The translations under genes were made by a program, and so were the position numbers. Shown here piece by piece: positions 44,296 to 57,622 of a stretch of DNA of 64,000 bases. Under the pieces are notes generated by a model that saw nothing but the letters and a program-made list of their open reading frames with translations, had not been told where the DNA came from and did not search any database. This DNA comes from Anaerolineae bacterium UTCFX2 (lineage in GTDB: Bacteria; Chloroflexota; Anaerolineae; Anaerolineales; UBA4823): assembly GCA_002050125.1 (NCBI GenBank), contig MWTA01000027.1, positions 1 through 64,000 of the forward strand, read 5' to 3'. Position 1 is the stretch's first letter; every line of letters begins with the position of its first letter.

Positions 44296-44877
44296 TCAGG
44301 CTCCTTGATCGACCCGCAGCGAGCCGTATAGATACCAAAAACGCGCTTTGGGGAAACTGGGTTTGAAGATCGGTTCCCAAACGAAATCACCGGGGATGAA
44401 GATGGCATTCAGGAGTACGTCCAAGCCGTTTAGCGCGTCTCGATCCGCCTTGGGCAACTCGAATATTTCCTCCATGAGCAGATCGAGCTGTACCCGCCGT
44501 GTGACTTCATACGGAAAGCGATCGAGGTTGTCTGTAGGGTCGGTTTCAAAATCGTTCAGGAAGTTGGTCCACAGGTTCAGCCGGGATCTGAATTCTGCGG
44601 CGGCTTTGTTGCTCCAGGCGGTGCGCCATTTCGAGCGAACCACCTCCATTTCCGCCTCCAACCGCTTAAGTTCGGATTGCTGTTTGCTCGTTTGGCTGAC
44701 TGCGCGAGCTCTCAACTGGAAAAGCAACAGCCACCCGAGGGTCAGTTGAGGGTATGGGGGTTCACTGGCTTTGTTTGGAATCCCGATGGGGCGAAAAACA
44801 TCCCGCGAGAGCAGATAACTTTCGAGCTGCTCGATGCCTGCCTTCATGAACCGCAGTTCATATTCCGCGTCGCTCAT
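44296..44877 (-). CDS. Unknown protein (193 aa)
   Basis: Not recognised. No signal peptide or clear TM helix. The first half (about 10-100) is helical, with SKQQSELKRLEAEMEVVRSK looking like a short coiled coil and the aromatic cluster WRTAW...NLWTNFLNDFE after it. The C-terminal half is rich in Leu and aromatic residues (LDVLLNAIFIPGDFVWEPIF, RFWYLYGSLRV). It may be a lineage-specific Chloroflexi protein. Followed by the MFS gene on the same strand; a terminator separates it from the pdh operon upstream. Confidence 0.65.
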   Translation of the reverse strand: MSDAEYELRFMKAGIEQLESYLLSRDVFRPIGIPNKASEPPYPQLTLGWLLLFQLRARAVSQTSKQQSELKRLEAEMEVVRSKWRTAWSNKAAAEFRSRLNLWTNFLNDFETDPTDNLDRFPYEVTRRVQLDLLMEEIFELPKADRDALNGLDVLLNAIFIPGDFVWEPIFKPSFPKARFWYLYGSLRVDQGA

Positions 44878-44988: not shown

Positions 44989-46320
44989 TTACAACAGGAG
45001 CTTCAACGGCTCCTCTAAATAATCAGCCAGAGCCTGCATAAAGCGGGCTGCCTCTGCTCCGTCGCTGACGCGGTGATCGACCGAGATGGTTGCTTTCATC
45101 CTCCAGCCAATCGTAAGGCTTTCGTGTTTTACGACTGGTACCTGGCGCGCTGAGCCAACCGCCAGGATTGCGGCTTCGGGCGGGTTGATAATCGCGCTGA
45201 AATTCTCTACGTCGAACATTCCCAGGTTGCTGATCGAGAAGGTAGAACCTTCGATGTCTTCAGGACGGACCTTGCCCTCGCGCGCCCGGGAAGCCAGCGT
45301 GCGCACCTCGACTGCGATCTGGCGCAGCGGTTTATGATCCGCATCGCGGCAAACGACCGTCAGCAAGCCGCCCTCGACTGCGACCGCGACGCCGATGTTG
45401 ACCGCGCCGTGCCGGATGACCTGGTCGTCGTTTTTCGAGGCGTTCAGGTTGGGAAATTGACGCAAGGCAAGCGCCACGCCCTTGACAATGAAATCATTGA
45501 CCGAAATCTTCTCATCCTCTTGGAGCATCGAATTGGCTTGTTGGCGCAGCGCCATCAGGGCATCCACGTCATATTCGTGCGTGATGTAAAAGTGGGGCGC
45601 CTGCTGCTTCGCTTCGACCATCCGCCGCCCGATCGCCAGGCGCAGCCGGTTGAGTGGAACGATCTCGTCGGCAGGGGTTTCTGCGCCAGAGAGTGTAGGC
45701 AGCGGCGCTAGAGGCGTCAGAGGCTTTACAGCTTTCTCGGCAAGCTGAGGGGCTGGTTCCCCTCTGGCTGGCGCTGACGCAGCCGCCTTTGCCAGCGCGG
45801 GCGCCTGTAAGTAAGCCATAATGTCTTTCTTGACAATTCGACCGCTCGGTCCTGAACCGGCGACTTGGCTGAGGTTGACCCTGGCGTCAGACGCCATGCG
45901 CCGGGCGATTGGCGAGGCGCGGACGCCCTCCGGAAGCCTGGCGTCTTCGGACGTTTCCGCCTCAGCGGCTGGGGCGGGCGCTGGAGCGGTCTCCGCGGCT
46001 TTCTCTTCGCTTGCAGGTTCGGTTTCTGGAAGGGTGATTGCCTGCGCTTCAGGCGATTCAGAGGCTTTTTTCACATCCTCGCCCGGCGCGGCAATGATCG
46101 CGATCGGTGAGTTGACCGGTACAATTGCGCCGGCTTCCACCAGGTGGCGGGCAACCACGCCTTCATAGTTTGATTCCACCTCGACTGTGGCTTTGTCGGT
46201 TTCGATTTCCGCCAGGACGCTCCCCTTCTCGACTTTCTCGCCCTCCTGGACCACCCATTTGATCAATGTGCCTTCCGCCATATCAAAGCCCAGCTTGGGC
46301 ATCTTGACGATTTCCGCCAT
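44989..46320 (-). CDS. pdhC: 2-Oxoacid (pyruvate) dehydrogenase E2, dihydrolipoamide acyltransferase
   Basis: Core acyltransferase of the complex, 443 aa. One lipoyl domain (1-80) with Lys43 in EIETDKATVEVES; an Ala/Pro/Glu linker; a peripheral-subunit-binding domain (about 128-165, RASPIARRMASDARVNLSQV); a second Ala/Pro linker; and the catalytic domain (about 205-443) ending with SVDHRVSDGAEAARF, whose His and Asp are catalytic. The ATG at 46320 overlaps the E1beta stop (TGATG) with AAGGAGGTG upstream. Substrate may be pyruvate, branched-chain 2-oxoacid or acetoin; pyruvate is assumed from gene order only. Confidence 0.92.
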   Translation of the reverse strand: MAEIVKMPKLGFDMAEGTLIKWVVQEGEKVEKGSVLAEIETDKATVEVESNYEGVVARHLVEAGAIVPVNSPIAIIAAPGEDVKKASESPEAQAITLPETEPASEEKAAETAPAPAPAAEAETSEDARLPEGVRASPIARRMASDARVNLSQVAGSGPSGRIVKKDIMAYLQAPALAKAAASAPARGEPAPQLAEKAVKPLTPLAPLPTLSGAETPADEIVPLNRLRLAIGRRMVEAKQQAPHFYITHEYDVDALMALRQQANSMLQEDEKISVNDFIVKGVALALRQFPNLNASKNDDQVIRHGAVNIGVAVAVEGGLLTVVCRDADHKPLRQIAVEVRTLASRAREGKVRPEDIEGSTFSISNLGMFDVENFSAIINPPEAAILAVGSARQVPVVKHESLTIGWRMKATISVDHRVSDGAEAARFMQALADYLEEPLKLLL

Positions 46321-47291
46321 CAAAGCACCTCCTTAACCGCCTGGACGACATCCTCCACCTGGGGCAGCGCGAGCTGTTCCAGGGTTCGATTGTAGGGAAG
46401 CGGGACTTCTTTTTGGGCTACGCGTTGAATGGGCGCGTCCACGTAATCGAAAGCCTCTTCGTAGATGCGCGCCGTCACCTCAGCCCCAACCCCGTAAGAG
46501 CGCCACCCTTCCTCAACAATCACGGCGCGATTGGTTTTACGAAAAGATTCCAGCACCGGCTCCATGTCGAGCGGTCGCAGCGTTCGCAAATCGATGATCT
46601 CGGCTTCGATGCCCATCCCGGAGAGTTGTTCGGCGGCTTTGCTCGAGGTTTCGAGCATTTTGCTGTAAGTCACAATGGTGACGTCTCGGCCTTCACGATG
46701 GACTTTAGATTTTCCGATCGGGGTGATGTAATCTCCGTCAGGCACCTCGGCGCGGGTCTGATACAGGGTGGCATGTTCGATGAAAAAGATCGGATCGTTG
46801 GAACGGATGGCTGATTTTAGCAAGCCTTTGGCGTCTTCCGGCGTTCCAGGCGCGACCACTTTGAGACCGGGAAAATGGGCAAAGATAGCATCGGGGGTTT
46901 GGGAGTGGGTCGCGCCAAGCTGCCGGCCTCCGCCGCCAACCGTTCGAATGACCAGCGGGAGTATCAGTTGGCCCCCAAACATGTAGTGCAGTTTGGCAGC
47001 CTGATTGACGATGTGATCCATGGCAGAAAAGGCGAAGTTGATCGTCATGATTTCGGCGATCGGGCGCAGACCGGTGAGCGCGGAGCCGATCGCGGCGCCT
47101 ACAATGGTCGATTCTGAAATCGGGGTATCGCGCACGCGCTTTTCGCCAAAATGGTCATAAAAGCCCTTGGTAACGGCATAAGAGCCGCCCCAAACACCAA
47201 CTTCCTCGCCCAGGATAAAGACATCGGGATCGCGCTCCATCTCCTCCCACATTGCCTGGGAGATCGCTTCGCGCATTGTTATTCGGGTCAT
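46320..47291 (-). CDS. pdhB: 2-Oxoacid (pyruvate) dehydrogenase E1 beta subunit
   Basis: Transketolase-like half of the thiamine-diphosphate E1 enzyme; 323 aa. MREAISQAMWEEMERDPDVFILGEEVGVWGG is the family's N-terminal region (positions 5-35; cofactor Glu in LGEEVG), followed by SESTIVGAAIGSALTG and IFFIEHATLYQ; the C-terminal transketolase domain contains GIEAEIIDLRTLRPLD. Coupled to E2 by a TGATG overlap and 85 bp downstream of E1 alpha. Confidence 0.95.
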   Translation of the reverse strand: MTRITMREAISQAMWEEMERDPDVFILGEEVGVWGGSYAVTKGFYDHFGEKRVRDTPISESTIVGAAIGSALTGLRPIAEIMTINFAFSAMDHIVNQAAKLHYMFGGQLILPLVIRTVGGGGRQLGATHSQTPDAIFAHFPGLKVVAPGTPEDAKGLLKSAIRSNDPIFFIEHATLYQTRAEVPDGDYITPIGKSKVHREGRDVTIVTYSKMLETSSKAAEQLSGMGIEAEIIDLRTLRPLDMEPVLESFRKTNRAVIVEEGWRSYGVGAEVTARIYEEAFDYVDAPIQRVAQKEVPLPYNRTLEQLALPQVEDVVQAVKEVL

Positions 47292-47376
47292 GTTTTCTTC
47301 CTTATGAATTCAATATTCTCAGTATGTTCGATAAGTTCGGTTGTTCAAATGAATTTCAGCGAAATCAAGCGAGATT

Positions 47377-48336
47377 TCAATTGTCGACATAGATGTTCGT
47401 GAACAGCTCTTCGGGTGCAGGTTCAGGGCTGTTCTCGGCAAACTGGATGGCTGCCTTAACTTCATCGGCTGCTTTTTGATCAAGTTGATCCAGTTCTGCC
47501 GCGCTGGCGATCTTTTCTGACGTCAGATAATGGCGGAAAATCCCGATTGGGTCGTTTTCTTCCCACTGTTTTACTTCATCCTGCTTGCGGTAACGTTCGG
47601 GGTCGCCCATTGAGTGACCCTGGAAACGATAAGTTTCGATTTCCAAGAAGTACGGCCCTTTTCCGGCGCGGATTTCCGCGAGAATGCGTTCGGCAGCCTG
47701 GCGGACTTTCATAATGTTCATGCCATCCACGACCTCGTTTGGGATGCAATAGCCCTCGGCTTTCTGACGGATGTCCGAAACCGCAGAAGCCCGGTCAACC
47801 GCGGTGCCCATACCATACTGGTTGTTTTCGCAGACCCAGAGGACCGGGAGGTTCCAGACCTTCGAGAGGTTCAGCGCTTCGTGAAAATAGCCAATGTTCG
47901 TTGCGCCATCGCCAAACATACAGATGGTCACGCCATCCGTCTCCTGATATTGGTCGCCCAGCGCCAATCCGGCGGCAATCGGCAGGTGCGCCCCGACGAT
48001 TGCGTGACCGCCCCAGAAGTTCTTTTCGACATCAGCCATGTGCATCGAACCGCCTTTGCCTTTCGAAATTCCGGTCGCCTTGCCGAGCAGCTCAGCCATT
48101 ACCAAATCCGCCGAGACGCCGCAATTGATTGCCACTCCGTGGTCGCGGTAGGCGGTGATCACCCGGTCTTGCGGCAGACGCGCTGAGATCAGCCCGGTGC
48201 TGACCGCTTCCTGCCCGATGTAAAGGTGCAGGAACCCGCCAATCTTTCCTTCCTGATAGAGCGGAATTGCTGCTTCTTCGACGCGCCGGATCAACACCAT
48301 CTGGTAGTATAGATCTAAATATTCTTCTTTTTTCAT
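47377..48336 (-). CDS. pdhA: 2-Oxoacid (pyruvate) dehydrogenase E1 alpha subunit
   Basis: Binds thiamine diphosphate; 319 aa. GDG at 142-144 and Asn172 in CENNQYG are the ThDP/Mg motif. GQEAVSTGLI and YRDHGVAINCG near the N-terminus, KGGSMHMADVEKNFWGGHAIVG and the phosphorylation-loop-like YRFQGHSMGDPERYR complete it. First gene of E1alpha-E1beta-E2; no E3 (lipoamide dehydrogenase) follows, so E3 must come from elsewhere. A hairpin lies in its leader. Confidence 0.95.
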   Translation of the reverse strand: MKKEEYLDLYYQMVLIRRVEEAAIPLYQEGKIGGFLHLYIGQEAVSTGLISARLPQDRVITAYRDHGVAINCGVSADLVMAELLGKATGISKGKGGSMHMADVEKNFWGGHAIVGAHLPIAAGLALGDQYQETDGVTICMFGDGATNIGYFHEALNLSKVWNLPVLWVCENNQYGMGTAVDRASAVSDIRQKAEGYCIPNEVVDGMNIMKVRQAAERILAEIRAGKGPYFLEIETYRFQGHSMGDPERYRKQDEVKQWEENDPIGIFRHYLTSEKIASAAELDQLDQKAADEVKAAIQFAENSPEPAPEELFTNIYVDN

Positions 48337-48502: not shown

Positions 48503-50704
48503 TTATGGCGTGGACAAACCGGCGCACTCTTCCAGACCGCCCATCTGGCGCGGAAACTTGACGCCCCAATTGGCGATGAGCCAATCCTGCGGCAGCGGCT
48601 CAGACATGCCGACGCTGCCCGCTCGGAAGGAGATTTGACCGGTTCGCACATGGACGACGAGCGTTTCCAGCGGGTCCCCGCGCTCAACTGTTCCCACGAG
48701 CGCCAGCGATTCGCCGTCCGGGCTCCAGACCAGGCTGCCCGCCTCAGCCAGTGGTATAACCAGTTGGTATTCACCCAGGATGAGATCGATCAAGTAAATT
48801 CCGGTTGTGTTTTCATCGCTGGTTGTCACAAAGGCGGCAACCCTGCGGCTGTCGGAAGCAAAGGCGAAAGACTGTACATTCAACCCTGGGACGGGCACAT
48901 AGATCCTGGATGGGTCGCGCAAGTCCAACCAGCGCAGGTTTGCGTCCGGAATGGATGTGCCATCGGAGCCGGTGTTAAAAGCCAGCAGGTAGCGGTTCGG
49001 AGAGCGCTCGCAGCGCAGCATCCAGGGCAAGCCAAATGTCGTTTCAGCCAGCCGATACCCATCGGCAATGATCACCGCTGGAACGCGGGCTGTGTCAGCT
49101 TGAATGTTGGTCGCATCCAGGTTGTTTGGGAATTGAAACACAAGCTGGCTGGAAGCTGGATCGAAACCCGGAGGGGCGGGTTCGGTTCGAGGCGCCTGTC
49201 TTATGCTGGCTGTCAGCACCGGGGTCGGGGTGGGTTCTATAACTCGATTGCTTGCCGCGGGGTTGTTGGGCGGTGAGGCGCCGACATTGCGCATCTCGGT
49301 GGATAAATGCGCCGGCGGAAAATTTTGGTCATATTGTATTTCGATGACGATGCTGTCGCTGATGAGCAGAGAAAAATCCGCGCCGCCGAAAATCTGGCTG
49401 CGCAGGATCAACCCTGTCCGGCTGTCGATCCACAGGCGCGCTTCGCGCTGACCGAATTCGTTGAACCAATCCACGATCAGCGTACTGATGTTGAGAATTT
49501 GGCTGGTGTCATACGCGCGGAAGGCGCCCTTGCGCAACATCCAGGGGGATTCGCCCGGGAAAACCATTTGACGCAGGTTTTCGTTGCGTATCAATGTGGA
49601 GGGCGAAGGGCTGTCTTCGCTGGCGAGTGTGAGGTTGAGGAACGGGTTGGAATACGTGATGCGGTCTTCGGAAAAGGTGTGCACGCTGCTGGGCGGCTGT
49701 GAATGTAAGCCGAAGAGTTCGATGGATTGGTCCGGGAGCGAGATCCAGGCTTGAGAGCGATAAATGCGCGGGGCGCCGAAATAACCCGCCGGACCGTAGT
49801 TGCTGGTCTGCACGTCGATCCACAGCGTGCGCCATAACTGGTCGCTTTCATGCAGCCGCAGCGAGATTTCCTCCGGTTTGGAGAACCAGAACAAGGGCAC
49901 AGCCCGGCGGATTTGCACAAGCGGAGCAGGGCGGGTTGCTGCCGGTGCAGCTTGAAAACGCCTCAGCAGATCCGCGCCAAACAACAGGAGTGAACTCGAC
50001 AGGCAAAGGATCACCAGCAGCACGCTTAAAATCGCAAATAAAATGGGCAGGCTAATCCGCTCGGTCCGGGCTGCTGCGGTTTGAGGCGCTGCCTGACGCG
50101 CCCGGTCAATCCATTCGCTCACCTCAGCCGCAGTCAGGTTGGCGGTTTCGAACCTTCTCCGCAGCGAAGCTTCGATCCCTTCCCGGTCTGCCGGTAAATC
50201 TCCGAACGCGGTTCTGAATTGCCGTTCGAAGATCGAGAGTTGGGTTCGGACCGCGCTGGCGTTCACCTTAAGCAAACGCGCGCAATCCTCAGCGCTCCAA
50301 CCAAGCGCGTAAAAGGTTGCACAAAGCAGCCGTTCGCGTTCGTCGTAGGAAACCAGAGACCGCCACAATCTCGAATCCACCTCATTGGATGGTTTCAACT
50401 CGTTTATGGGCGCCAGGCGTTTCAGAGGGCGGCTGTCCTTGATGATCCGCTGGTAAATCCACGGCAGGCTGGGCGCTGCGCGCGTTTGAAGTGCGCGTTG
50501 GATTGTCCTTTCAATTGTGGACTGGAGAGCCTGCAGGGCTAGATTTCGATTATCGATGATGGCGTAGCCGATTGTGAACAGCTCTGAAGCGTGCTCGCGC
50601 AACAGCAGTTCCGCCGCGGCAAGGAACTGCGTTTCGGGCATGGCCTCTGAGTTATCTGGGTCTACGCTTTGGCGAGGTTTGTCAGACATATACCCACTGC
50701 TCAC
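48503..50704 (-). CDS. Membrane-anchored ECF-sigma-like / TolB beta-propeller fusion (copy 1)
   Basis: 733 aa, function unknown. Cytoplasmic part: a sigma region-2-like segment (about 30-95) and a region-4-like helix-turn-helix (about 120-168; DERERLLCATFYALGWSAED...). One TM helix (about 218-245). Extracytoplasmic: a LolA/RseB-like domain (about 290-470; LWIDSRTGLILRSQIFG) and, after a Pro/Thr linker, a TolB/WD40-like propeller (about 510-733; LVWSPDGESLALVG). It could be a tethered transcription regulator sensing the envelope, or a sigma relict used only as an anchor. GTG start overlaps the stop of the upstream paralogue; an in-frame ATG at 50689 is an alternative. The paralogue carries a LysM that this copy lacks. 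Confidence 0.75.
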   Translation of the reverse strand: MSSGYMSDKPRQSVDPDNSEAMPETQFLAAAELLLREHASELFTIGYAIIDNRNLALQALQSTIERTIQRALQTRAAPSLPWIYQRIIKDSRPLKRLAPINELKPSNEVDSRLWRSLVSYDERERLLCATFYALGWSAEDCARLLKVNASAVRTQLSIFERQFRTAFGDLPADREGIEASLRRRFETANLTAAEVSEWIDRARQAAPQTAAARTERISLPILFAILSVLLVILCLSSSLLLFGADLLRRFQAAPAATRPAPLVQIRRAVPLFWFSKPEEISLRLHESDQLWRTLWIDVQTSNYGPAGYFGAPRIYRSQAWISLPDQSIELFGLHSQPPSSVHTFSEDRITYSNPFLNLTLASEDSPSPSTLIRNENLRQMVFPGESPWMLRKGAFRAYDTSQILNISTLIVDWFNEFGQREARLWIDSRTGLILRSQIFGGADFSLLISDSIVIEIQYDQNFPPAHLSTEMRNVGASPPNNPAASNRVIEPTPTPVLTASIRQAPRTEPAPPGFDPASSQLVFQFPNNLDATNIQADTARVPAVIIADGYRLAETTFGLPWMLRCERSPNRYLLAFNTGSDGTSIPDANLRWLDLRDPSRIYVPVPGLNVQSFAFASDSRRVAAFVTTSDENTTGIYLIDLILGEYQLVIPLAEAGSLVWSPDGESLALVGTVERGDPLETLVVHVRTGQISFRAGSVGMSEPLPQDWLIANWGVKFPRQMGGLEECAGLSTP

Positions 50705-53229
50705 GAAAGGGGCGGTTTTGAACAGGCATCCAGGTTGCCCATCTCAACTGGGAATTCTACCCCCCAGTCGAGCACAAGCCAATCCCCGGCGGAATGAGAA
50801 AGCAGGTCGAGAGGCGCATTATACGTGATCTGCTCGGTTTCTACATCGAAGATCGTGACGTTTTCGAGATACGTGTCAGGTGACGCGCGCGAGATCATTG
50901 CCAGCCTCTCGCCGTCTGGGCTCCAGACCAGGCTTTTTACATCGCCAATGGATAGAACGGGTTTGTTCTGGTGGGTTGCGAGATCGATAATGCTTAACGT
51001 GCCGTTCCCGTGCGCGCCAGGGCGGATGAAATAGGCGAGGCGCCGGCTGTCGGGGGAAAAAGCGAAATCAGTCACTCCCTGCTCAGAATTTGGCGAGGTG
51101 TAAGATTGGGCTGGATCGGCAAGGTTGAAGTAAATTAAAGGCTCTCGGGCGGCATTTTCTTCAGCAGGTATGCTCACGTAAGCCAGCCAATTCCCATCTG
51201 GAGAACGCTGGCAAAGCGTCTGCCAGGGATTGCCGAACAGAACCGGTCTCAGCGAATAACCGTCCGCGAGCAATTCGATGATTGTGGGCGGCGAATCCGG
51301 CGAATAGAAAGGCGGAAATTGAAACAACAACCGGCTTTGAGCCCGATCGAAATTTAGCGGCGCCGGCTCAGCATTAAATCGCACGTGCTTCGAATCGAGG
51401 CGTGGGGGCTGCTCCTGAATATCTGCCGGGGCGCCGGATGAGTCGCTGGCAAATCCGCCCCGCCAGGGCAGGCGCGCGTCAAAGAGACCTGGCGGCAGTT
51501 CGAAATCATAAGCGACTGATGCGACCTGAACTTCGAAAATCGGTCTCAGCTCTTCTCCTGGGTGAAAGATGATCCTTCGCAGGATCATCCCGCGGCTGTC
51601 GTCATACCAGATGCGATCGGTCTGCAAGCCCTCTTCGTTGAAGACCTCCAGGACAAGCGCCTGGACGCCAGCCTGTTCTTCGCGCCCCGATACGCTTATG
51701 CGGCTGTCCTCCAGAGAATACCTATCGAAAAGCGTTTGTTTCATGCGCAGCAGGATTCTGAAGGAAGGGCTGTTGGTTTCTGGAGTATCGCCCCATTCCG
51801 AAAACCAGGCAGGATTGGCTTGGGGGCGGGTAAATTGCCAGGAATTTCCTATCCGAAGCTCCACCGCTTGAGGGAGTTGACCCGCATAGCCAATCAAATC
51901 CAGCGATTGTTCTTGGCTCTCCCATACCTGCCCCTGGAAGACGCCTGGCGGACCGATATAGCTCAACGGGCCGTAATCGATGGCCCTGGCGTCAATCCAC
52001 AGTGTGTTGTATCTGCGTTCTTCCAGTGACAGGCGCTGGTGGACTAAATCGACGGGATAAGGATCCTCCAGAGGCAGGGCGGAAGCTTTTCGCGGACCTG
52101 GAGTCGGAGGAGGGCTGTTCACAGACGCCCAATGACCGGGCAATAGCAGGCGCTGACCGGCTTCAAGGATAACGTCATCCGGCAGGCGGTTAAGCTCCCG
52201 AAGAGAGTCTGGTGGGATGTTGAGCCTTTTTGCGAGATCTTCGAGGCGTTCTCCCGTCCGCTTAATGGTGTATTGACGGAATAAAGGCTGGTGCGGTTGT
52301 CCCGTGGATATTGGACCGATTGGATGATGTCTTGGTACGACGGTGATATTTTTATGGACGATTTTCGTGACCAATACCGTTTCCAGCGTCACGTTCGCGG
52401 GTTTAGGGGTTGCCTGGGTTTCGCCCAAGACATTCATCCCCCAGGCGATCCCCGCCCCAACCAGGATGATCAGCACAACCAAGCCGATTTCCAGCGCGGA
52501 AAACACGCCCCGGCGGCGGGTTTGCATTGCCCGCGTCCGGCGGTTGATCTGCGCCAGAATCCTTCCCTGGTCTGGTTGATTGAGACTAACCGGCAGCCAG
52601 CGCCTTTCGAGTGAGGCTTTCAGGGTTGCGGCAAACTCATCTGAAATGGGCGGTTGTTCGCGCCCCTCGATGGGTTGAGCTGAGCTCATTTCAACTTGCA
52701 GGGTTTTCTGAATCTCATGGATCGCGTCGGACACAGCTTCCGCGTTGTTGCCAGTCAACGCTTCGATCGTAGCGGGCTGCCAGTCCATGAGCAATCCCAA
52801 TATCAGAACCTGCCGCAAACTGGTTTCCAACCCATCCACAGCCAGCCAAATTTCCGCATCCACCTCGTTTTCGGGGAGTGTGTCTCCCAGCAGATTGAAA
52901 TTGGTCAAGAATGGAAGGGTAGAAACGAGCTTTCTGAGCCGCTCCAACGAATCGTGCGCGCTGGCGCACTCCTCCAGCGCCAGGCGATATAGCCATAGCT
53001 CGATGCCCTGTTGGGGGCGGTAGCGGTGCAACTCGAGCAATGCGCGGGCGAAGACCCTACCGGCGATTTGGCGGGCGGCGCGCCGGTTGTCGAGGGTGGC
53101 AAAAGCCAGGTGGAATACGCCCGGATAATACTCGCTGATCAGAGCTTCGAGCAGCGTCTCTTGTGAGACCTGCCCGCTCTGCAGCATCCACTCAAGATCC
53201 GGAGCGTAATCGGAGGTTGGGGTGTGCAT
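50701..53229 (-). CDS. Membrane-anchored ECF-sigma-like / LysM / TolB beta-propeller fusion (copy 2)
   Basis: 842 aa, upstream paralogue of the protein at 48503-50704. Sigma region-2-like part (about 25-95; YYPGVFHLAFATLDNRRAAR, WLYRLALEE) and region-4-like part (about 125-180). TM helix at about 244-266. Then LysM (about 318-364; RQYTIKRTGERLEDLAKRLN), the LolA/RseB-like domain (about 405-585; RIWYDDSRGMILRRIIFHPG) and the propeller (about 615-842; FAFSPDSRRLAYF, LVWSPDGERLAMI). Shared strings such as NTLWIDARAIDYGPLSYIGP versus RTLWIDVQTSNYGPAGYFGA show tandem duplication. The LysM suggests cell-wall contact. The two stop/start codons overlap (GTGA). Confidence 0.75.
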   Translation of the reverse strand: MHTPTSDYAPDLEWMLQSGQVSQETLLEALISEYYPGVFHLAFATLDNRRAARQIAGRVFARALLELHRYRPQQGIELWLYRLALEECASAHDSLERLRKLVSTLPFLTNFNLLGDTLPENEVDAEIWLAVDGLETSLRQVLILGLLMDWQPATIEALTGNNAEAVSDAIHEIQKTLQVEMSSAQPIEGREQPPISDEFAATLKASLERRWLPVSLNQPDQGRILAQINRRTRAMQTRRRGVFSALEIGLVVLIILVGAGIAWGMNVLGETQATPKPANVTLETVLVTKIVHKNITVVPRHHPIGPISTGQPHQPLFRQYTIKRTGERLEDLAKRLNIPPDSLRELNRLPDDVILEAGQRLLLPGHWASVNSPPPTPGPRKASALPLEDPYPVDLVHQRLSLEERRYNTLWIDARAIDYGPLSYIGPPGVFQGQVWESQEQSLDLIGYAGQLPQAVELRIGNSWQFTRPQANPAWFSEWGDTPETNSPSFRILLRMKQTLFDRYSLEDSRISVSGREEQAGVQALVLEVFNEEGLQTDRIWYDDSRGMILRRIIFHPGEELRPIFEVQVASVAYDFELPPGLFDARLPWRGGFASDSSGAPADIQEQPPRLDSKHVRFNAEPAPLNFDRAQSRLLFQFPPFYSPDSPPTIIELLADGYSLRPVLFGNPWQTLCQRSPDGNWLAYVSIPAEENAAREPLIYFNLADPAQSYTSPNSEQGVTDFAFSPDSRRLAYFIRPGAHGNGTLSIIDLATHQNKPVLSIGDVKSLVWSPDGERLAMISRASPDTYLENVTIFDVETEQITYNAPLDLLSHSAGDWLVLDWGVEFPVEMGNLDACSKPPLS

Positions 53230-53308: not shown

Positions 53309-53435
53309 TGATTCTGATCGACGAAGAATCTTTGACAGGTGCTGACCGCCATCGGGAACTTCGCCCCGAGTTGCGGCGTCGTGGGAAAGGATCGTCCAGG
53401 AGAACCGAGGATCAATGAAAGGCGCAGGAGGTAGG

Positions 53436-54782
53436 ATGAAAGGGAAAAAGAAAATCAGGGTCTATCTGCTTACGTTTGGAGTGTTGCTGACCAGCGTAGC
53501 CTGTGCCTTTTCCGGAAAACCTGCACCAACCCCAACCGTTACTATTCTTCCAATACTGCCAACCTCTACCATCGCCTCATCTGGGGTGGTCGAAACGCCA
53601 GGTTCCGTTCCAGAGACCCAACCGCCAACGCCCGATACAGGCGCGTTGATCGTGGCTTATACCAACGAGAATAACGTATCTATCTGGTTGCAAGGGGCGA
53701 TCAAGCAGTTGACCACTTCCAGCGACGCCTATGAGCCGCGGCTTTCCCCGGATGGGAAAATAATCGCCTTTTTACGGACGATCGATGCCTTTCATCTGGA
53801 AATCTGGGCGGTCGATTCGAACGGTGAGAACCAGCGCCGGCTTGTCGGCGTGGAGGATCTGGACGCAATTGGGGGTGGTGTGCGCGATCCCGCCGCGCTG
53901 GCGATTATCCCTTACCGTTTCCGCTGGATTCCGGGTTCTCACAACCTGGCGTTCAACACCCAACAGGTATTTCAAGGACCTGGCTTGAGTTTGCTAAACG
54001 ATTTATACGTGGTGGACGCCGACAGCCTGCAAATTAATCACTTGTTCCTGTCAGGCTGGGGCGGCGAATTCTTTTATTCACCCGATGGGTCTCAGATCGC
54101 CATCTCCCAGCCGGATCAAATACTCCTGACGAACGCGGATGGCAGCCAATACCGCTCGGCGTTGCGCTATGATCCGGTCACGACCTATTCCGAATACCGA
54201 TTTTATGCCAGACCGGTCTGGGCGCCGGATGGTTCTTTTTTGTTGGCAGCGATCCCCCCGGTTGATCCCCTGGCTCAGCCGCCACAAGCGACCGAAATCT
54301 GGCGCATTTCAGCCGATGATACATCGCCGGCGCTGGCAGGCAGCGTGTTCGCCGTGCCCTTCCAGGAACAATCGGTGGCTTTTTCGCCCGATCTTGAACG
54401 GATTGCGTTCCTTAAAGAGACCGGTCAGCCGCAGGAGAACTTGCGCGAGCTGCACTTAGCCACCGTGGATGGGTTGGGTGATTTCGTCTATTCAAAAGCC
54501 AGTCCGATCGTTTTTCAGAGCTGGTCAACCGATTCGACCCGCTTTGTCTACTCAACCGGACTGGCGCCTGAGACGTGGATCGGCAGCCTTGAAGAGACCC
54601 CTCTGGGTCTCAGCCCCGACTTCAACGGCGCGCAAGGGCTATCTTGGGTAAATTCTACACAGTTTCTTTTCTGGCTGCCGGCTGGAAACGGGTTCGAGCT
54701 GCATCTGGCAGACATCGATGGCGGCTCAAAGCTCCTGGATACCGTCTTTGGGGTACGACCCTTCTTTTCGTTTCATCGATAA
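53436..54782 (+). CDS. TolB-like beta-propeller lipoprotein
   Basis: 448 aa. N-terminus MKGKKKIRVYLLTFGVLL followed by TSVAC: a lipoprotein signal with Cys23 (lipobox imperfect, Ser at -3). A Pro/Thr-rich spacer (about 30-70) leads to a WD40/TolB-like propeller: YEPRLSPDGKIIAFL, FFYSPDGSQIAI, PVWAPDGSFLLAA and SVAFSPDLERIAFL mark blades. No enzyme motif. The start at 53436 follows GGAGG; an in-frame ATG at 53415 is also possible. It faces the sigma-propeller fusions across a divergent promoter region, and its propeller resembles theirs in type, so it probably belongs to the same envelope module. Confidence 0.8.
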   Translation: MKGKKKIRVYLLTFGVLLTSVACAFSGKPAPTPTVTILPILPTSTIASSGVVETPGSVPETQPPTPDTGALIVAYTNENNVSIWLQGAIKQLTTSSDAYEPRLSPDGKIIAFLRTIDAFHLEIWAVDSNGENQRRLVGVEDLDAIGGGVRDPAALAIIPYRFRWIPGSHNLAFNTQQVFQGPGLSLLNDLYVVDADSLQINHLFLSGWGGEFFYSPDGSQIAISQPDQILLTNADGSQYRSALRYDPVTTYSEYRFYARPVWAPDGSFLLAAIPPVDPLAQPPQATEIWRISADDTSPALAGSVFAVPFQEQSVAFSPDLERIAFLKETGQPQENLRELHLATVDGLGDFVYSKASPIVFQSWSTDSTRFVYSTGLAPETWIGSLEETPLGLSPDFNGAQGLSWVNSTQFLFWLPAGNGFELHLADIDGGSKLLDTVFGVRPFFSFHR

Positions 54783-54896: not shown

Positions 54897-56132
54897 ATGA
54901 CGGGCGAACGAATAAAACCTGACATTCAAGACCTGCCGCCTTTTTCTGGGCTGAATGCTGAGGCGCGCCGTTTTCTACAAAGCCGGCTGAGAAGCTATGT
55001 ATTCTCGGCTGGAGACACGATCGTCGGACGGGGAAAACGCGGCGGGTTTTGGGCGCTGGTCGGCTTTGGATTGATCGACCTTGATTTTGGAAATCAGAAC
55101 TTACAGACCTTGCTCCCTGGACAGGCGTTTGGGGAAGCCATGCTGTGCGAGGATGCGCCGAGCCAGGCTGCCGTAACCGCCCGCTCAGAGGCGGGGTTGT
55201 GGGTGCTCACGCGCACAGACTGGCTGGAAGCGGTTCGCCAGAGCCCATCCTTAAAACCGGTAAAAATATCCACAAAGAAGAATTTCCCCTGGGTTTGGCT
55301 GACTGCTGGATTGATCCTGTTGCTGTTCACGGTCTTTTTTGTCGGTTCGGACTTGCTCCAATTCACCAATGAGCGGGTGGTTGGATACACACTTAATGTG
55401 AACAGACCAGACTTGGCGGAAAGATATCTTGAATTTTCACTGAGATGGCAGCCGCGTACCGCCCTGCTGTACGACGCTTACGGGTACTCGCTGTATGTCC
55501 AGGGGAAACAGAGCCCGGCGATAAAGGCATTTGAGCAGGCAATCGCGGCTGACGCGCTGTTGGCTTCGGCTCAAAATAATCTGGGTGTGACACTCTTAGG
55601 GAGTTGGCAGACTTCGCAGGCAATTCAGCATTTGGAGCAAGCGGTAGAGCTTGACCCAGGCAACCCGGAGGCTTACTTCAACCTGGCGAACGCTTATCAG
55701 GCAGCCGGCAATCAGGAAGCGGCGATAAAAACTTATCATCGGGTGATCGAGCTTGCTCCCGACCGAATGGATGCCCAAGAACAGTGGGCAAGCCTGATGA
55801 TGAAAAAAGGGGAATATGACGCGGCTGAGCAGGTCTGGAATGAGGTCTTACAAGCGGATCCAGCCAATGCCAGGGCGCATCGCAATCTGGGGATCATGGC
55901 TGTGCTGGAAGATCGCTCCGGTGAAGCGCTGTTGGAATTGAAGCAGGCATATGAGGCGGGCGTCCGGGACGCGGAAATGTATCTTTATCTGGGATTGGCG
56001 TTCAGCGCGCTTGACCAGCCGGAGAAAGCCACGGCTGCCTTTGAAAGCGCCCTGACGTTAACCAACGATCCTGCGCTAATCCAATTGGTTCAATTTCATT
56101 TGCAGGATATCGGAGGGAAGACTGTGCCGTGA
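54897..56132 (+). CDS. CRP-like sensor domain - TM - extracytoplasmic TPR protein
   Basis: 411 aa, not recognised as a named family. Residues 10-115 form a cyclic-nucleotide-binding (CRP-type) beta-roll; the phosphate cassette reads PGQAFGEAMLCEDAPSQAAV (74-93), where the usual Arg is Gln, so cAMP binding in the standard way is doubtful. A TM helix (about 131-151) follows, then four to six TPR units (about 190-395; AQNNLGVTLLGSWQTSQAIQ, EAYFNLANAYQAAGNQEAAI). By the positive-inside rule (KISTKKNF before the TM) the sensor is cytoplasmic and the TPRs outside. It may relay a signal or hold surface proteins. No Shine-Dalgarno sequence is visible at the ATG. Confidence 0.8.
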   Translation: MTGERIKPDIQDLPPFSGLNAEARRFLQSRLRSYVFSAGDTIVGRGKRGGFWALVGFGLIDLDFGNQNLQTLLPGQAFGEAMLCEDAPSQAAVTARSEAGLWVLTRTDWLEAVRQSPSLKPVKISTKKNFPWVWLTAGLILLLFTVFFVGSDLLQFTNERVVGYTLNVNRPDLAERYLEFSLRWQPRTALLYDAYGYSLYVQGKQSPAIKAFEQAIAADALLASAQNNLGVTLLGSWQTSQAIQHLEQAVELDPGNPEAYFNLANAYQAAGNQEAAIKTYHRVIELAPDRMDAQEQWASLMMKKGEYDAAEQVWNEVLQADPANARAHRNLGIMAVLEDRSGEALLELKQAYEAGVRDAEMYLYLGLAFSALDQPEKATAAFESALTLTNDPALIQLVQFHLQDIGGKTVP

Positions 56133-56725: not shown

Positions 56726-57622
56726 ATGAGTAATCCAGTGCGATCACCTGCCGTGCAAAGAAGAGACGTAAAAAAAGGGCGTTGGATCAGCGACCTGCTG
56801 GTCGCAGCCGGGTTGCTGCTGCTGGCTGGCGTGCTGCTGGCGTTGTTAAAGACCTCGCTGGCGACTTCTCAATTGAACGAGTTTCGCTATCTTCAATCCA
56901 ATATCGAGCTTGCAGGACCGCTCCCGACTTTGCCGCCTAAGATCGTTCCGCCTGAGCCTGTGCCGTTGATTTTCATGCCGATTGTCTTGAAAGCAGAATT
57001 ATCAGAAATTGCCGCGGCGCAACCGGCGGAAACCGATTTACCGGCAGGGGAAGAACCGCAAGAAAATCCGCAGGTGGAAGAAAGCCTGCCTCCAGGCGTC
57101 AGAGCGGGTCCCTCGGCTGGTCCGGTGGTTCGGATCGTGATACCGGATTTGCGCGTCGACCGGGCGGTGGTGCCGGTGGGATTAAAACGCAGTTCCGGTC
57201 AGCAATTAGAGTGGAACACCGATGCCCTTTTTTCAACGGCTAATAGATCGGACCTGGTGGGGCAGATCGAGGCTTCGGTCAATCCTGGCGATGGCGGCAA
57301 TATTGTCTTGTTGGGGCATAATTACAACAATGGCTGGTACGCAAACGCTGGGGTTTTTGTAAACTTACAAAATCTGAAACCCGGCAGCCAGATCACCGTG
57401 TACACCCAGGACGGAAGCGAATATCGTTACAGCGTTCAGGTCGTTAAAAAAATTCCCTGGCAGCAGCAAAGCGCCTCCGAACTGGAGAAACATCAAAAAT
57501 ACCTCTGGCCAACCGACCACGAACAATTGACCCTGGTCACGTGCGGTGGGGCGAATCTCCTGAACTGGTCTGCCAGAATTTACGTGGTTGCCACGCCGAT
57601 GCTCAACACCGCCGGCAATTGA
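56726..57622 (+). CDS. Sortase
   Basis: Membrane-anchored transpeptidase, 298 aa. A TM helix (about 22-43) at the N-terminus, then a Pro/Glu-rich spacer of about 80 residues, then the sortase beta-barrel (about 130-295). The catalytic triad is His198 (LLGHNYNN), Cys273 (TLVTCGG) and Arg284 (SARIYVVA). It resembles the small class D/E/F sortases more than SrtA. Within the spacer, PLIFMPIVLK resembles a motif I recall from many secreted Chloroflexi proteins. The upstream gene encodes the probable substrate. Its stop codon directly abuts the stop of the convergent rhodanese gene. Confidence 0.9.
   Translation: MSNPVRSPAVQRRDVKKGRWISDLLVAAGLLLLAGVLLALLKTSLATSQLNEFRYLQSNIELAGPLPTLPPKIVPPEPVPLIFMPIVLKAELSEIAAAQPAETDLPAGEEPQENPQVEESLPPGVRAGPSAGPVVRIVIPDLRVDRAVVPVGLKRSSGQQLEWNTDALFSTANRSDLVGQIEASVNPGDGGNIVLLGHNYNNGWYANAGVFVNLQNLKPGSQITVYTQDGSEYRYSVQVVKKIPWQQQSASELEKHQKYLWPTDHEQLTLVTCGGANLLNWSARIYVVATPMLNTAGN

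Follow-up and report, generated by a model that had tools for sequence, protein, structure and literature searches.

Tandem membrane proteins of an Anaerolineae bacterium with a probable pseudo-sigma head and an apparent origin in a split sigma/anti-sigma pair

Fusions of a sigma factor to a membrane sensor have precedents. Processing of IutY by Prc and RseP frees an active sigma factor (PMC5411451), and SCO4117 of group ECF52 combines a sigma domain, a zinc finger, a transmembrane (TM) helix and a carbohydrate-binding domain (PMC5826349). ECF48, ECF53 and some ECF36 members are also membrane sigma/anti-sigma fusions, and IutY is placed in ECF243 (PMC8999054). PhyR uses its sigma fold only for binding an anti-sigma factor, NepR, and it is mainly through region 2.2 that sigma factors contact the beta-prime coiled-coil (PMC4598750). 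A sequence-only reading of the locus described here had pointed to planctomycete sigma-WD40 fusions as a partial precedent; IutY, ECF48, ECF52, ECF53 and some ECF36 members are closer ones (PMC8999054).

The window analyzed is a stretch of 64,000 nucleotides from Anaerolineae bacterium UTCFX2 (contig MWTA01000027.1, positions 1 to 64,000). Two of its genes, P1 and P2, overlap by 4 nucleotides, the start of P2 overlapping the stop of P1. The start codon of P2 is GTG, with an ATG at codon 6 as a possible alternative. The features of the locus are as follows.

50701-53229, minus strand: P1, 842 amino acids, with predicted pseudo-sigma, TM, LysM, RseB-like and propeller parts (open reading frame listing of the window, family matches, whole-protein AlphaFold2 model with mean pLDDT 82)
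52678-53205, minus strand: P1 residues 9-184, sigma2 and sigma4 fold without the region 2.2 acidic pair (R53, Q54, G57, R58; SigW Z 15.3, residue comparison)
52423-52641, minus strand: P1 residues 197-269, juxtamembrane segment (LKASLERRW) with the TM helix, related by homology to zf-HC2 anti-sigma/sensor proteins, both those that retain the zinc finger and those that have lost it (HHalign 97.1%; AlphaFold2 helices 197-210 and 218-269)
52138-52257, minus strand: P1 LysM domain, residues 325-364 (Pfam PF01476, E=2.6e-6, passing the cut-off)
51466-52050, minus strand: P1 RseB-like domain, residues 394-588 (RseB/MucB Z 12-13.6)
50704-51342, minus strand: P1 small TolB-like propeller, residues 630-842 (PD40 E=3.4e-7; TolB E=6.5e-4)
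48503-50704, minus strand: P2, tandem paralogue, 733 amino acids, no LysM (open reading frame listing of the window; 31% identity to P1 over the outer part)
49985-50614, minus strand: P2 predicted pseudo-sigma part and start of the juxtamembrane/TM region (A2 profile E=6.6e-19)
49265-49933, minus strand: P2 RseB-like domain, about residues 258-480 (homology to P1; weak MucB_RseB match, E=0.2)
48506-49147, minus strand: P2 small propeller, about residues 520-733 (homology to P1 and L084; weak TolB match, E=0.14)
44989-48336, minus strand: E1alpha, E1beta and E2 genes of a pyruvate/2-oxoacid dehydrogenase, downstream of P2 (Pfam, synteny)

This anatomy is well supported. In both proteins a single TM helix separates an ECF-sigma-like part in the cytoplasm from an RseB-like domain and a small TolB-like propeller outside, and the sigma part of P2 is the more degenerate. 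The TM helix of P1 (about residues 247-265) follows the segment RRTRAMQTRRR, so the protein is oriented with its N-terminus inside and its C-terminus outside. The sequence-only reading had described tandem proteins of this build, and family matches together with structural similarity to SigW and RseB confirm it, although its domain list missed the LysM domain of P1 and the juxtamembrane segment derived from an anti-sigma factor. A third paralogue in the same genome (L003, 1498-3072, minus strand, 524 amino acids) has a degenerate sigma part, a TM helix and LysM-like and RseB-like regions, the propeller being absent.

The cytoplasmic part of P1 has the sigma2 and sigma4 fold of an ECF sigma factor. 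Residues 23-181 match the sigma C family NF006930 (E=2.5e-10), the match to Sigma70_r2 (E=8.6e-4) falling below Pfam's cut-off. An AlphaFold2 model of residues 1-290 has a pLDDT of 89 and a pTM of 0.81, and its residues 9-184 superpose on the SigW chain of the SigW-RsiW crystal structure (5wuq_A) at Z 15.3 and 3.4 Å over 157 of 158 residues. RpoE-NepR and CnrH-CnrY also score highly and PhyR structures reach Z of about 10. Because the anti-sigma-bound sigmas score highly and the polymerase-bound ECF sigmas align by a single domain or at an rmsd of about 26 Å, the predicted sigma2-sigma4 arrangement of P1 is the inhibited, anti-sigma-bound one. The P2 N-terminus is weak when searched alone (Sigma70_r4_2, Pfam E=0.02); the profile of P1-like N-termini (A2) recovers it, and in the sigma tree P2 nests within the fused clade, so that its sigma assignment comes through the profile and that of P1 through structure. 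The Pfam model for the sigma-like domain of PhyR matches two fused members (best E 7.6e-6). Chance similarity to sigma factors was ruled out by the family E value, by the Z score over the whole fold and by the recurrence of the same architecture in about 28 homologues. Sigma similarity and a TM helix between the two halves, on which the sequence-only reading had staked its case, were both found.

Gene neighborhoods were examined in 38 stretches from relatives and from the genome itself. In several, a separate sigma gene (184-212 amino acids) lies immediately upstream of a gene for a TM protein; some of these partners match the outer domains of P1 or P2, and three carry zf-HC2 anti-sigma fingers. 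For the closest free-standing sigmas, the next gene encodes a zf-HC2 anti-sigma/sensor protein, and the ‘L..SL..RWP’ juxtamembrane segment and TM helix of those partners align with the fused proteins at the HHalign value listed above, to which the hydrophobic TM helix contributes. The sigma tree places all 28 fused sequences in a single group with moderate support (UFBoot 63), and this group joins five split sigmas of the sensor-paired kind at UFBoot 100. The P1 and P2 clades are sisters (89), and both contain more than one genus (80 and 99), which makes the tandem pair an old one. Intermediates survive and add support for a fused origin: in G041 an intact sigma is followed by a TAG stop and then by a same-frame membrane partner with DTLSESLQTRWP, lacking the zinc finger; G007 is fused with HLAGCQAC still present; and HxxxCxxC is also retained in L072 and L067. 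This zinc motif of zf-HC2 anti-sigmas is absent from the P1 and P2 sequences. An assembly artefact joining two genes was rejected, as the stop-free fused frame recurs in many genomes. The split pairs, the HHalign comparison and the tree together give good support to descent of P1 and P2, by fusion, from a split ECF sigma and zf-HC2 anti-sigma/sensor pair, as judged from sequence, and strongly uphold the earlier idea that separate sigma-system proteins became one chain; P1 holds the sigma part, the anti-sigma-derived segment, the TM helix and the outside domains together. The reading that we prefer, with a probability of about 0.6, is that P1 and P2 are membrane receptors with a pseudo-sigma output domain derived from such a pair, and not latent sigma factors.

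The residues with which a sigma factor contacts polymerase have largely disappeared from the fused family. Positions 53 and 54 of P1 are acidic in 18/18 and 17/18 split sigmas versus 3/28 and 3/28 fused members, figures that rest on these 28 fused and 18 split sequences plus the genome's own nine ECF sigmas (8/9 and 9/9). P1 reverses the charge there and P2 has L53 and Q54, so neither retains the region 2.2 acidic contacts of a functional ECF sigma. Region 2.2 varies among real ECF sigmas too, with Q57 in four of the genome's own nine. Asn86, basic or Ser/Thr positions of region 4 and many promoter-contact residues are also depleted, and region 4 was not recognizable in L074, L077 and L081. 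Some fused members may keep sigma functions, since 9 of the 28 still match Sigma70_r2 and 11 of the 28 Sigma70_r4_2 at E<=0.01. For the fused family as a whole, loss of sigma function is likely; its sigma-like fold without polymerase contacts is that of a PhyR-type mimic.

These residues bear on the possibility that P1 and P2 are latent membrane-bound sigma factors like IutY and SCO4117, in which an outside signal would have the chain cut within or close to the TM helix by regulated proteolysis, releasing an active sigma, perhaps for the dehydrogenase genes. Their layout equals that of known proteolytically activated fusions (PMC5411451, PMC8999054), the sigma2-sigma4 fold is intact in P1, and the domain is under purifying selection. 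However, the clamp acidic pair is gone in nearly all members, region 4 is lost in several, region 4 of P1 has a net charge of -7 versus a mean of +2 in split sigmas, and an ECF-like promoter pattern (GAAC-N16-CGT; a single pattern and a weak test) had no match near P1. Scans for promoters and terminators gave no more matches than chance. We regard a latent sigma factor as unlikely. Where the sequence-only reading had left the sigma half as either a releasable transcription part or a membrane-bound scaffold, the loss of the region 2.2 pair, of promoter contacts and in some members of region 4 weighs against the former, and the scaffold fits better.

The pseudo-sigma domain of the preferred reading is maintained, probably for another task, because its dN/dS is 0.06-0.30 in four pairs (rough figures, dS being high) and Trp14 has become fixed in the fused forms. 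Trp14 occurs in 23/28 fused versus 0/27 split sequences, the latter set including ten split sigmas picked by a motif of which the acidic pair is a part, which biases an acidic-pair comparison in that set. Pure decay of the sigma part is disfavored by both observations.

Outside the membrane, P1 residues 394-588 have the fold of the N-terminal domain of RseB (Z 13.6 against the Escherichia coli protein, in the AlphaFold2 model); no RseB C-terminal domain was detected in this part. RseB itself is a separate periplasmic protein that binds RseA/MucA, and here the RseB-like part shares a chain with the pseudo-sigma. The propeller of P1 has about 15 strands in the model, or some four blades, and is smaller than TolB. 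Both propellers of the pair are short (48506-49147 and 50704-51342, minus strand), and P1 and P2 might conceivably pair as half-propellers.

It is also conceivable that only the outer part works, as a surface protein binding lipid, lipoprotein or cell wall, the sigma part being a relic that serves as a cytoplasmic anchor. For the closest P2 pair, identity is 74-76% in the outer domains versus 54% in the sigma domain, sigma4 has been lost repeatedly, and L089 and L091, from another family of the order, have RseB-like proteins with a signal-peptide-like segment at the N-terminus and without a sigma match. Set against this, sigma-domain dN/dS is below 0.1 in two genus-g14 pairs, as low as in other parts of the protein; L12, W14, L16 and W79 are invariant in A2; and L094 (4931-6772, minus strand) preserves the N-terminal module while a C39-like domain and TPRs take the place of the RseB-like and propeller parts. 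We consider a mere anchor doubtful.

Among 350 sampled genomes of the order and 400 of the phylum, full-length matches to the P1 N-terminal profile were confined to the window's own GTDB family. One genome from a different family of the order (G055, L082) also has fused genes, of a more divergent kind. A narrower profile (A3) searched against genome contigs gave 8 loci, and the named records with matches are Chloroflexota metagenome-assembled genomes, several labeled Anaerolineales. Across many genera, 2-oxoacid (pyruvate-type) dehydrogenase genes are found downstream of the fused genes. A fused gene adjoins E1alpha-E1beta-E2 in L061, L063, L064, L066, L069, L071, L073, L082, L083 and L094, in some cases across a small ORF, as in the window. 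L094 retains the N-terminal module at this position despite its different outer part. The gene order suggests that the fused genes may be functionally linked to the dehydrogenase.

Other genes of the neighborhood encode a 193-residue protein with no Pfam match (44296-44877, minus strand), whose homologues lie near dehydrogenase genes in L061, L066, L071, L082 and L094; a divergent 455-residue protein with PD40/TolB-like repeats and a lipoprotein-like N-terminus (53415-54782, plus strand), with homologues in the same neighborhood in L062, L064, L069 and L071; a protein with a cyclic-nucleotide-binding-like domain, a hydrophobic segment and TPR repeats (54897-56132, plus strand); and a sortase-domain protein (56726-57622, plus strand; PF04203, E=1.7e-18).

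We propose that the outer domains (RseB-like, propeller and, in P1, LysM) are probably sensors for the condition of envelope lipid, lipoprotein or cell wall. On the cytoplasmic side, the sigma2-sigma4 fold would sit in the anti-sigma-bound arrangement that the model predicts, followed by the residual anti-sigma segment. As RNA polymerase-clamp and many promoter contacts are lost, the pseudo-sigma head most likely no longer starts transcription and is probably a protein-binding head, for example in P1-P2 pairing or in anti-sigma binding as in PhyR; candidate zf-HC2 proteins are encoded in the same genome. More tentatively, and with odds well below even, P1 and P2 might be transmembrane counterparts of PhyR, in which outside binding alters exposure of the pseudo-sigma so that it titrates a free anti-sigma or engages its tandem partner.

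The surviving intermediates show an envelope signaling system of sigma, anti-sigma and RseB-like sensor collapsing into one membrane protein, whose sigma half then shed its polymerase contacts while under selection. Should the pseudo-sigma head bind a partner, sigma mimicry would here take a membrane-anchored form. In Chloroflexota genomes, proteins of this type may pass for sigma factors or carry names based on LysM or TolB. In the literature searched, largely without subscription journals, we found neither a membrane sensor with a pseudo-sigma head nor a paper on LysM, beta-propeller and sigma factor together in Chloroflexi.

Like P1 and P2, IutY and ECF48/52/53 unite sigma, TM helix and outside sensor in one chain from a sigma/anti-sigma pair (PMC5411451, PMC5826349, PMC8999054). 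IutY and SCO4117 act in transcription by experiment (PMC5411451, PMC5826349), whereas the P1/P2 family has lost RNA polymerase-contact residues; its outer domains (LysM, RseB-like, propeller) also differ from theirs, and most fused members lack the zinc finger. ECF57 likewise joins a sigma to propeller-type (WD40-like, C-terminal) repeats, but is suggested to act via protein interactions and two conserved cysteines, with no RseB-like or LysM part described in the available part of the source (PMC8999054). PhyR likewise has a sigma2-sigma4 fold without working as a sigma factor (PMC4598750), as residue comparison suggests for P1 and P2. It is, however, a soluble protein under the control of a receiver domain, whereas P1 and P2 are membrane proteins for which an anti-sigma would be a candidate partner only. 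The SigmaE-RseA-RseB system has all its counterparts in P1 and P2, namely sigma, anti-sigma-derived segment and RseB-like domain, but here they form one chain in which the anti-sigma core is mostly lost and a propeller and, in P1, a LysM domain have been added.
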